Below are positions 52,827 to 55,090 of a stretch of 64,000 nt of DNA, piece by piece. A program made the position numbers and the translations under genes. Within the stretch, counting starts at the first letter, position 1. Each line of letters opens with the position of its first letter. Under the pieces are notes generated by a model. That model was not told where the DNA came from. It worked only from the letters and a program-made list of their open reading frames with translations, and ran no database searches. The stretch spans positions 3,753,001-3,817,000 of the forward strand of contig NC_020453.1 of assembly GCF_000344805.1 (NCBI RefSeq). Direction: 5' to 3'. Source of the stretch: Bradyrhizobium oligotrophicum S58 (GTDB taxonomy: Bacteria; Pseudomonadota; Alphaproteobacteria; Rhizobiales; Xanthobacteraceae).

Positions 52827-53050
52827 GCGAACCTCCTCGAGCCTGCCTCCCCATGGAATAAGTCGGACGCCCCCTTGGAAGGTTCAACCCCAAGCTGAAA
52901 ACTTCATCGCGTGCGCTGCAATGCACATCCCCGACATCCCCTCTGGTCAGGCCCGCGAAACGCCCTAAGCTCGTGACGCGTTCCGCGAAGAGAACGAGGA
53001 AGTCGCCGGGGCGGCATGGCCGTCCCGCAGCAGGGAAGGAAGAGCGTCCG

Positions 53051-54019
53051 ATGAAGGATTTCGCCGGCAGGATCGCCGTGATCACCGGGGGCGGCACGGG
53101 CATGGGCCGCGAACTCGCCCGCCAGCTCGTGGCCGAGGGCTGCAACGTCGCGATGTGCGACGTCTCGCTCGAGGCGATGGCCGAGACCAAGCGGCTGTGC
53201 GAGGCCGAGAAGCTGCCGCAGGGCCTGCGGGTCACCACCCATGTCGCCGACGTCTCGATCGAAGCGCAGCTGCAGCGCTTTCGCGACGAGCTCGCCGAGC
53301 AGCAGGCCACCGACAAGATCCATCTGCTGTTCAACAATGCCGGCATCGGCGGCGGCGGCAGCCTGTTCACCAACTCGCGCGAGCAGTGGGAGCGCACCTT
53401 CAACATCTGCTGGGGCGGCGTCTATCTCGGCGTCCGCACCTTCCTGCCGCTGCTGCTGAAGGCGGACGAGGCGCACATCGTCAACACCTCCAGCGTCAAC
53501 GGCTTCTGGGCCTCGGTCGGGCTCGGCGTCTCGCACACGGCGTACAGCGCCGCGAAGTTCGCGGTGAAGGGATTTACGGAAGCGCTGATCAACGACCTCC
53601 GCCTCAACGCGCCGCACGTCAAATGCTCGGTGGTGATGCCCGGCCATATCGGCACCTCGATCGTGTCGAACTCGCGCAAGGTGCAGAGCGGCACCGAGTC
53701 CGACGAGCTCAGCGAGACCGAGATCGGTCTGGCGCGTCAGCGCATGAAGGGCATGGGCATCGACGTCGCCGCCATGAGCGACCAGGACATCCAGAACGCC
53801 GCCCGCGAGCGCGCCCGCAGCTTCCTCGAGGACGCCCCGACGTCAGCGGCGCAGGCGGCGAAGATCATCCTCGACGGCGTCAAGGCCGAGCAATGGCGCA
53901 TCCTCGTCGGCGAGGACGCCAAGCTGCTGGACATGCGTGTAAGGCAGACGCCGGAGCAGGCGTATGAGCCGGAATTCTTCCAGCGGTTTGCACAAGAGGC
54001 AGGGTGGAAGCTGGGGTAG
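53051..54019 (+). CDS. Short-chain dehydrogenase/reductase
   Basis: A 322-residue SDR oxidoreductase. The NAD(P) site is TGGGTGMG (residues 12-19), NNAGIGGGG follows strand 4, and the catalytic residues are Ser147/148 (NTSSVNG), Tyr165 and Lys169 (YSAAK). The length exceeds a minimal SDR because of an extended C-terminal region (about residues 215-322) after MPGHIGTSIV. Such long forms occur in Bradyrhizobium and mycobacterial lipid or alcohol oxidation clusters; the substrate here is unknown. The ATG at 53051 has GAAGGAAGAG upstream. Confidence 0.9.
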   Translation: MKDFAGRIAVITGGGTGMGRELARQLVAEGCNVAMCDVSLEAMAETKRLCEAEKLPQGLRVTTHVADVSIEAQLQRFRDELAEQQATDKIHLLFNNAGIGGGGSLFTNSREQWERTFNICWGGVYLGVRTFLPLLLKADEAHIVNTSSVNGFWASVGLGVSHTAYSAAKFAVKGFTEALINDLRLNAPHVKCSVVMPGHIGTSIVSNSRKVQSGTESDELSETEIGLARQRMKGMGIDVAAMSDQDIQNAARERARSFLEDAPTSAAQAAKIILDGVKAEQWRILVGEDAKLLDMRVRQTPEQAYEPEFFQRFAQEAGWKLG

Positions 54020-54069
54020 GGACTTGCTGTTCGTTGGAAAACAGCACCTTTCGCCACGCAGACGGTGAG

Positions 54070-54113
54070 CTCCCCTCCCCCTTGCGGGGAGGGGTCGGGG
54101 GTGGGGGTCCACG
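54070..54113 (+). repeat. Left 44-bp inverted repeat of the DUF559 unit
   Basis: It reads CTCCCCTCCCCCTTGCGGGG, then AGGGGTCGGGGGTGGGGGTC, then CACG. It is the exact reverse complement of 54474-54517. Its outer half can fold on itself (CCTCCCC with GGGGAGG), giving a REP-like hairpin. Confidence 0.93.
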
Positions 54114-54145
54114 AGTCCCGCTGCCAATGACGAGATCAGACGGCC

Positions 54146-54568
54146 ATGGATGACAGCCGACGATCATTCGCGCAACGAATGCGCGCCGAACCGACCGAAG
54201 CTGAACGGGTCCTTTGGCAACGCCTCCGCCACCACATCAAGCTCGCCGGTTCTCACTTCCGCCGGCAAGCGCAGATCGGACCCTTCATCGTCGATTTCGT
54301 CAGCCGCAAAGCGAAGCTCGTGATCGAAGTCGACGGCGGCCAGCATGATTGGCAGCAGGAGGAGGACGCTGCCCGCACCCGGCAGATCGAGGCTGCCGGC
54401 TATCGCGTTCTTCGCTTCTGGAACAACGATGTGCTTGGAAATATCGAAGGTGTGCTTCACGAAATTCAGTGCGCGTGGACCCCCACCCCCGACCCCTCCC
54501 CGCAAGGGGGAGGGGAGACGAGACCGCCGCGCCGTCCCCGCAGAACGCGGAGACCGGCCAAAGAGTGA
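54146..54568 (+). CDS. DUF559 endonuclease-domain protein (Vsr / PD-(D/E)XK-like)
   Basis: A 140-residue protein. The N-terminal helix region FAQRMRAEPTEAERVLWQRL is the family opening. FIVDFVSRKAKLVIEVDGGQ contains Asp50 and the EVD segment (Glu61, Asp63) of the nuclease-like core, and GYRVLRFWNNDVLGN is the closing strand and helix. DUF559 proteins resemble very-short-patch repair endonucleases; no activity is established here. The last 30 residues come from the inverted repeat and following DNA and are Pro/Arg-rich, probably disordered. The start may be slightly upstream, but the ATG at 54146 fits. The gene lies alone between an SDR and gcrA. Confidence 0.85.
   Translation: MDDSRRSFAQRMRAEPTEAERVLWQRLRHHIKLAGSHFRRQAQIGPFIVDFVSRKAKLVIEVDGGQHDWQQEEDAARTRQIEAAGYRVLRFWNNDVLGNIEGVLHEIQCAWTPTPDPSPQGGGETRPPRRPRRTRRPAKE
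54474..54517 (-). repeat. Right 44-bp inverted repeat of the DUF559 unit
   Basis: Exact reverse complement of 54070-54113. It overlaps the 3' part of the DUF559 coding region, so part of the protein tail is specified by the repeat. Confidence 0.93.
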
Positions 54569-54613
54569 CGGCGCGGGAGCGGTCCTAGCTAGCGGCGCCG
54601 TCGTCGCTCTCTT

Positions 54614-55090
54614 CTACCTCGCCGACGCCACCCGATACGCCATCCGTGTGTGGCTCGGGCAATACGGCAAGCCGTCGATCGGCTTCGACCCGCAGAAGCA
54701 GAAATCGTCGGCGCCGGGGGTGGAGATCGGCCAGCGGCAGCGTTCCTTGGAGAGTTCGAACAGCGAGCAGCCGTTCTCGACCGTGCCGACCGGCTCCTCG
54801 ACGATGATGGGCGGCGGATCGTTGGTGACCGCGCGCAGGATGCGGCGGCGCAGTTTTGGCACGGGGCGGCGTGCGCCATCCCGGGTGGTTTCGGCGCGGA
54901 CCACGCGTCTGGAGTCGCCGCCATTGTCACGCGTCAGCGCCAGGCGGGAGATCTTGCCGATCACGGCATTGCGGCTGACGCCGAGCTCGGCGGCGATCTC
55001 GCGGCAGGTCAGCCCGGCCTCAAAGTGCTGCTTCAGGGCCTGGAGCCGTTCCTCGGTCCAGGTGGGTGATGTCTGTCGTTCGGCGGGCAT
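54614..55090 (-). CDS. gcrA: GcrA-family cell cycle regulator
   Basis: A 158-residue regulator. The N-terminal helix-turn-helix is WTEERLQALKQHFEAGLTCR then EIAAELGVSRNAVIGKISRL, the DNA-binding domain known to recognise CcrM-methylated GANTC sites with sigma70. The C-terminal part has the Cys-containing CRWPISTPGADDFCFCGSKP and YCPSHTRMAYR, typical of GcrA. In Caulobacter it controls cell cycle promoters, and relatives are conserved in Rhizobiales. Length is a little below the Caulobacter protein. The middle linker is Pro/Arg-rich. Confidence 0.93.
   Translation of the reverse strand: MPAERQTSPTWTEERLQALKQHFEAGLTCREIAAELGVSRNAVIGKISRLALTRDNGGDSRRVVRAETTRDGARRPVPKLRRRILRAVTNDPPPIIVEEPVGTVENGCSLFELSKERCRWPISTPGADDFCFCGSKPIDGLPYCPSHTRMAYRVASAR

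Follow-up and report, generated by a model that had tools for sequence, protein, structure and literature searches.

A DUF559 gene framed by inverted copies of a scattered palindromic repeat in Bradyrhizobium oligotrophicum S58

A stretch of 64,000 nucleotides of the Bradyrhizobium oligotrophicum S58 genome (NC_020453.1, positions 3,753,001 to 3,817,000; hereafter the window) contains a gene of the DUF559 family that is framed by two exact inverted copies of a palindromic repeat, itself scattered through the genome. The best explanation of this arrangement is that the unit constitutes the gene-bearing member of a short palindromic repeat family. It is probable, in our judgement, that the nuclease targets the palindromes of the repeat it is paired with and that these are copied by repair or recombination, in a manner resembling the pairing of repetitive extragenic palindromic (REP) doublets forming hairpins (REPINs) with REP-associated tyrosine transposases (RAYTs), a Vsr-fold nuclease being the partner here. 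The original prediction had proposed a possible nuclease-driven mobile unit in which gene and repeat are kept together, and its interpretation is, overall, supported.

The unit and its repeat family

The two arms of the unit are reverse complements at 44 of 44 positions, as originally predicted, and are separated by 360 nt (Table 1). The left arm is laid out as CCCCTCCCC-loop-GGGGAGGGG followed by a G-rich tail directed at the gene; in each arm the stem occupies the outer side and the G-rich tail TCGGGGGTGGGGG faces the gene. As single-stranded DNA each arm folds into a nine-pair CCCCTCCCC/GGGGAGGGG hairpin of -14.3 kcal/mol, in agreement with the REP-like hairpins that had been proposed; compared with shuffled sequences the z values were -2.3 and -2.8, equally good folds occurring in 5 and 2 of 200 shuffles, respectively. 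The right arm was confirmed by codon position to encode residues 110-124 of the protein, most of which have low confidence in the predicted structure. The arm sequence is conserved as DNA. Third codon positions of the coded right arm were identical to those of seven relatives at 104 of 105 sites, against 434 of 763 in the gene core (p 2.6e-22), and the left arm kept 41-44 of its 44 bases in seven relatives, against 12-27 in the adjoining 32-bp spacer.

The genome containing the window (8.26 Mb, a single contig) holds at least 49 copies of the arm (40 of 95 candidates were scored in one search). Close pairs, 17 in number, account for 34 of the 49; the order is head-out in every pair, and the matched stretches are 17 to 360 nt apart. 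A diverged partner lies close to 10 of the 11 singletons inspected, there being 15 singletons in all. The gene-free forms in this genome comprise REPIN-like dimers some 100 bp long as well as elements, roughly 180-330 bp in length, that resemble miniature inverted-repeat transposable elements (MITEs); several of these MITE-like elements have conserved ends in common. Positions 54059-54122 of the window match one end of the MITE-like element G000 7230424-7230750 at 97% over 64 bp, a match covering the left arm, 11 bases outside it and the nine spacer bases AGTCCCGCT. That the gene-free elements are shrunken DUF559 genes was considered and rejected: between the gene region and 15 other elements only matches of 9-17 bases were found, and hence the gene-free elements have ends in common, not coding sequence. 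Nested within the element G000 7230424-7230750 is an inverted dimer of a different type, CGTCATCGCGAGC ... GCAATGACG, which may be a CGTC-type repeat.

The existence of gene-free dimers and MITE-like elements with the same ends would also be expected if the DUF559 gene were a passenger trapped between the arms, the dimers being moved by another enzyme such as a RAYT or an insertion sequence (IS) transposase; moreover, REPs were already known in Bradyrhizobium (PMC3733652). This explanation is nevertheless improbable, given that genes of the DUF559 family in Pseudomonadota, Cyanobacteriota and Deinococcota are framed by a great variety of repeats, and that the one Y1 transposase gene found in the genome has no such arms, other transposase families not having been searched. 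A RAYT as owner of the repeat was rejected, the sole Y1_Tnp gene found (39 bits) lying elsewhere and unframed.

Table 1. Features of the unit and of its insertion site (window coordinates).
Feature	Position	Strand	Remarks
SDR (short-chain dehydrogenase), host gene, left border of insertion site	52973..54019	+	Pfam adh_short
Left arm, palindromic repeat	54070..54113	-	Exact reverse complement of right arm; at least 49 genome copies; hairpin
Spacer, left arm to start codon	54114..54145	+	First nine bases AGTCCCGCT match MITE-like element end
DUF559 (PF04480) gene, candidate Vsr-fold nuclease, 140 aa	54146..54568	+	Open reading frame (ORF); PF04480 E 1.3e-37
Right arm, inverted copy of left-arm repeat	54474..54517	+	Codes for residues 110-124 (AWTPTPDPSPQGGGE)
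Basic C-terminal protein tail past repeat, last part of unit	54518..54568	+	Unit homology ends at 54526-54566 in seven comparisons
GcrA-family regulator, host gene, right border of insertion site	54614..55090	-	Pfam GcrA E 1e-42

Extent of the framing

Framing was scored as the inverted similarity between the 150 bp on each side of the DUF559 domain. The unit of the window scores 44, whereas all 4500 control intervals and all 307 control genes stayed below 30. Two sets of loci were surveyed. Set A comprises 75 of 80 named relatives, 5 having been dropped for short flanks or contig ends; it was assembled with peptide patterns of this DUF559 protein, and near relatives and Bradyrhizobium orthologs are over-represented in it. 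Set B comprises 90 loci in 89 genomes across the phylum, out of 144 other genomes with a match; 30 were returned as best and 60 were chosen by hand, one per genome, from the strong matches listed, so that weak matches lie outside the survey. In set A, 50 of 75 loci scored at least 20, 44 at least 25 (as did 7 of the 4500 control intervals taken from these loci) and 37 at least 30 (against 0 of 4500); 50 loci exceeded all 60 of their own control intervals and 25 did not. In set B a score of at least 20 was obtained for 52 of 90 loci, compared with one of 307 neighbouring genes from both sets (Fisher p 3e-39), and a score of at least 25 for 40 of 90, compared with none of 307. Arranged by kinship, the loci scoring at least 18 were 8/9 within the genus, 1/1 within the family, 10/20 within the order, 20/28 within the class and 19/32 within the phylum. 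DUF559 genes are framed more often than the control genes, and the pairing of gene and repeat, which the original prediction had suggested for alphaproteobacteria, extends well beyond them. Twenty further DUF559 paralogs gave a score of at least 20 in 18 cases. Outside the phylum, Deinococcus loci scored 21, 50, 60 and 39, and cyanobacterial loci 24, 43, 21, 14, 14 and 13, the first of these reaching 54 with 200-bp flanks. Genes for true Vsr enzymes (27 of 30 loci, 3 dropped for short flanks or contig ends) were framed in no case, even with 300-bp flanks, at which 117 of 163 DUF559 loci were framed.

Chance or base composition as the origin of the framing was rejected by the interval, neighbour-gene and Vsr controls. 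A further null, in which flanks of different loci were paired, was dropped because repeat families common to different genomes inflate it (95% point 32, maximum 57, 11 of 78 loci over its 99% point). In the 141 DUF559 loci with a palindrome in both flanks, the inner side was G-rich in 102 left and 105 right arms, and the ORF extended into the right palindrome in 79. In three Deinococcus species, framed DUF559 genes were observed on plasmids at differing junctions of the hpa cluster (L337, L342, L347), and in a fourth species between paaD and paaZ (L343).

Correspondence between repeats and genes

Four DUF559 genes are present in the genome of the window, and three are framed, each by another repeat family (scores 44, 30 and 29). 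From one genome to another the arm families are different, and among paralogs they often are too. For the paralogs fetched from 12 genomes that have several, 26 of 36 units had arms more similar to each other than to the arms of the remaining units in that genome, taken as a mean (Wilcoxon p 8e-5); a repeat family is common to some paralogs. When 60 Bradyrhizobium genomes were searched with the 36-base core of the arm, allowing up to 3 mismatches, the three that carry the unit contained 43 (G000), 13 (G437) and 3 (G428) copies, with 21, 4 and 1 exact copies outside the unit, whereas the other 57 contained 0 to 2 each, none exact, and no second genome-wide pair of type-A arms. The co-occurrence of unit and arm core gave a Fisher p of 2.9e-5, phylogeny being ignored.

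A matrix of arms against 16 genomes, picked as carriers of arm-bearing DUF559 genes or as contrasts and therefore informative on specificity, not on prevalence, gave a similar picture. Arm A was present in three genomes (43, 48 and 11 copies) and arm C in three (5, 9 and 9), each being absent from the 13 others; arm B was present at 3 to 43 copies in eight (four Sphingobium and four of one other family), as a single copy in two and not at all in six. Pattern D is its own reverse, which voids the built-in control, and its counts (11 in G155, 9 in G024, 3 in G283, 3 in the genome of L098 and one each in three others) were left out of the specificity claim. Contrary to one outcome that the original prediction had considered, the repeat families are tied to DUF559 genes.

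These counts bear on the suggestion that the nuclease has a policing function, either pruning repeats by cutting extruded hairpins or harming cells that lose the unit, the arms being regulatory or protected targets. Hairpin-forming arms and purifying selection on the gene would suit such a function, as would the dependence of the SOS response of Caulobacter scmA mutants on VsrA, reported in PMC12907096. However, pruning predicts fewer copies where the gene is present, and arm copies are more numerous, not fewer, in unit-carrying genomes; we hold a policing role to be quite improbable.

The protein and its tail

PF04480 is the only Pfam family above its cut-off in the unit, which encodes no recognised transposase. 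The closest protein among the matches listed is from Bradyrhizobium sp. ORS 285, and the family amounts to 5324 homologous protein clusters at E 1e-3. Residues E61, D63 and H67 are invariant, and E20, D50 and D74 invariant or nearly so (60 and 62 sequences), so that catalytic residues of the Vsr/EDxHD type are conserved. The predicted fold is of the Vsr/EDxHD kind, its nearest structures being a DUF559 structure and a homing endonuclease, and it is closer to the latter than to Vsr; the NCBIfam vsr model (TIGR00632) gave 17.1 bits, below its cut-off of 97.85. The protein is hence a candidate Vsr-fold nuclease, in line with the PD-(D/E)XK or Vsr-like partner originally suggested. It is under purifying selection: the ratio of nonsynonymous to synonymous substitutions was 0.04-0.09 between the core of the window protein and four relatives, and 0.07-0.21 among those relatives, one pair not being computable.

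Purifying selection would equally be expected of a housekeeping Vsr-like repair nuclease whose flanking palindromes are kept for expression, ending or protecting the transcript or insulating the gene from its neighbours. The literature offers this explanation two further arguments, namely that Caulobacter VsrA contains DUF559, is SOS-linked and has been proposed as a very short patch (VSP) repair enzyme (PMC12907096), and that many REPs are plausibly transcribed RNA elements (PMC3733652). We consider it unlikely, since the arms stand on both sides of the gene and are members of multicopy families, since framing was found in 0 of 27 true Vsr genes and 1 of 307 neighbouring genes, and since the fold resembles a homing endonuclease more closely than it does Vsr. 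Nor did scans of 53900-54700 reveal a promoter or a terminator consensus. Rfam returned nothing above threshold and a single sub-threshold match to snoU25, and PADLOC just two weak matches (E 0.003).

The proline-rich tails of many annotated DUF559 proteins, TPTPDPSPQGGG and PIPAFPQRGK for example, are explained as translated repeats. The TPTPDPSP-type ending that the original prediction had mentioned for other DUF559 proteins is indeed widespread: a TPDP/DPSP-type tail was present in 119 of 120 homologs with the whole protein as query, a result biased by the tail of the query, and in 101 of 120 with the core only, both lists being the best 120 of more than 5000 and leaning toward near relatives. 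The other 19 of the core-only search appeared, by eye, to be variant or frame-shifted readings of the repeat. For a gene of another family, a proline-repeat pattern was present in 113 of 120 relatives, the named matches being Hydrogenophaga, Variovorax and other Burkholderiales, with tails such as PIPAFPQRGK, PHPCLPPEGEG and PTPALPQRGR; these tails read as other repeats at the same protein position. A tail variant, PTPDLESELRSPRTPQGGG, recurs (P0124, P0126, P0130, P0142, P0150 and others) and resembles an insertion inside the palindrome-coded part.

Sites of the unit

The queried region had a match somewhere in each of the 60 Bradyrhizobium genomes. In all 13 relatives fetched, chosen for closely spaced SDR and GcrA genes (the best GcrA-like match of some other genomes lies several kb off), the gap between these genes is 32-116 bp and contains no unit; with the unit it measures 597 bp in the window, 620 bp in SRS-191 and 575 bp in B. 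aeschynomenes. The region search scored 5 candidates per genome, and its silence on units elsewhere is weak. Six loci, L067-L072, have a homologous unit with 75-78% identity next to glyQ; where the contig extends as far as glyS (L067, L068, L070 and L072, namely dw_411, REEB74 and two Rhodopseudomonas), the unit lies between the two genes, the contigs of L069 and L071 showing glyQ only. Homology begins at the outer edge of the left arm (54069-54071) in seven of seven comparisons and ends 9 to 49 bp past the right arm, near the end of the gene. Standing at SDR-GcrA in some relatives and at glyQ(-glyS) in others, the unit has, by sequence comparison, had at least two homes; fixation at a single site, which the original prediction had held out as contrary evidence, is not what is found.

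In the metagenome-assembled genome REEB74 (L205:3029-4140) two complete units stand in tandem between glyQ and glyS, followed by a third left arm with a truncated start; this array is a tandem growth of the unit at one site. Six Azospirillum strains (L331, L332, L335, L339-L341) have one DUF559 site in common, with flanks mostly 89-100% identical to those of L331. Identity to L331 is 98-99% in L332 and L339 but falls in L335, L340 and L341 to 56-66% at the gene start and 82-84% at the left arm, and only L335 has the right arm; the pattern fits a replacement of alleles at the site, whatever its mechanism. In L340 (Azospirillum argentinense MTCC4035) an IS-like insertion of about 1.1 kb with a transposase-like ORF, presumably IS110-like, is situated inside the left repeat. 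Relatives of the DUF559 protein occur in 37 of 72,556 plasmid records (E up to 1e-10), several of megaplasmid or chromosome size, and in 2 of 50,697 phages (E up to 1e-8); given this rarity, plasmids and phages are probably not the main carriers. The unit looks mostly inherited and rarely relocating, unlike a busy mobile element.

Discussion

In the mechanism that we favour, the DUF559 protein would recognise its own repeat family as a hairpin or palindrome, which it would nick or cut. Repair or recombination with another copy would then copy the arms, the short dimers in trans and, rarely, the whole unit. As an outcome the unit would relocate rarely, the gene-free dimers would spread more often and the arms would be homogenised. 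The system would thus work like REPIN-RAYT, with a Vsr-fold nuclease replacing the HUH Y1 transposase and with largely vertical inheritance. A wider proposition is that DUF559 proteins of Pseudomonadota, Cyanobacteriota and Deinococcota are the dedicated enzymes of a further superfamily of palindromic repeats, hitherto without a partner and with a C/T-rich stem and a G-rich tail, and that as Vsr-fold nucleases they cut hairpins of their own repeat, driving its copying and homogenisation free of any transposase. The repeats would then form a class of short DNA that copies itself; for this we see the chances as evenly balanced.

Several observations weigh against these proposals. The step by which the nuclease would cut or move the repeat is inferred, neither event having been observed. 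Relocation is rare, since each of the two sites is common to a group, and a target-site duplication is unreadable in empty sites that are too diverged. Because the unit and the abundance of the repeat both follow clades, their co-occurrence is in part phylogenetic; in addition, the arms are part of what defines the unit. Arm similarity within a unit exceeded the best score across units in only 20 of 36 cases. As many as 38 of 90 loci in set B and 25 of 75 in set A scored below 20; unframed examples are L034 of the same genome as the window (14), the E. coli ycjD-like gene (16), Sinorhizobium K101 (10) and two A. brasilense strains (11 and 10). Both tails are G-rich inward in only 81 of the 141 two-palindrome loci, and in Deinococcus the tails are directed outward. 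Finally, palindromes are common: of 313 control genes, 93 have stems of at least 8 on both sides, against 141 of 165 DUF559 loci. This last figure is what could be invoked for the absence of any link, common intergenic palindromes framing DUF559 genes by chance or through a shared site preference. The excess of matching inverted arms over control genes in set B and the conservation of the coded arm at third codon positions make such an explanation hardly credible, and as far as these data go it is refuted.

Palindromic repeats are abundant in many bacterial genomes, and some families have no known partner enzyme; the repeats of the DUF559 unit belong to a family other than CGTC that is likewise without a partner in the literature found. 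A nuclease as partner, if true, would give a testable role to the large and barely studied DUF559 family, would allow DUF559 proteins, Caulobacter VsrA among them, to be interpreted in a second way and would suggest an origin of REPIN-like systems with enzymes that are unrelated. No report linking DUF559 with such repeats was found among open-licence papers, mostly judged from listings, and as far as literature searches reach the pairing is new.

Comparison with known systems

The closest parallel is REPIN-RAYT, in which, according to Bertels and Rainey (PMC3116915) and Di Nocera and colleagues (PMC3733652), the enzyme gene lies beside scattered palindromic repeats that form inverted doublets and undergo little lateral transfer, with a different REPIN cluster beside each RAYT (PMC3116915). 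The DUF559 unit likewise has an enzyme gene flanked by palindromes of a scattered family, inverted doublets dispersed in the genome (head-out in 17/17 close pairs) and, in its own genome, three repeat families at three paralogs, a separation that is only partial across the 12 genomes compared. It differs in that the enzyme is predicted to be a Vsr-fold nuclease instead of an HUH Y1 protein, PF01797 not being found between the two arms, and in that the protein often ends in sequence read from the right arm (79/141 two-palindrome loci). REPs of the GTAG and CGTC superfamilies have been described, Bradyrhizobium included, and the CGTC repeats 'apparently lack a dedicated transposase', in the words of Di Nocera and colleagues (PMC3733652); both tetramers are absent from the 44-bp arm, whichever strand is read. 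With an unrelated enzyme and without the tag motifs, the unit is therefore not a member of REPIN-RAYT. From Vsr and VsrA the protein is set apart by a score below the NCBIfam vsr cut-off and by the unframed state of true Vsr genes (0/27). MITEs and transposons with terminal inverted repeats resemble the unit in having such repeats and gene-free copies, but the unit has palindromic ends and no recognised transposase, and a target duplication is not established. Unlike EDxHD homing endonucleases (I-Bth0305I, 3r3p), the short single-domain DUF559 protein is associated with no intron, and its unit has palindromic ends of its own and exists also as gene-free copies.
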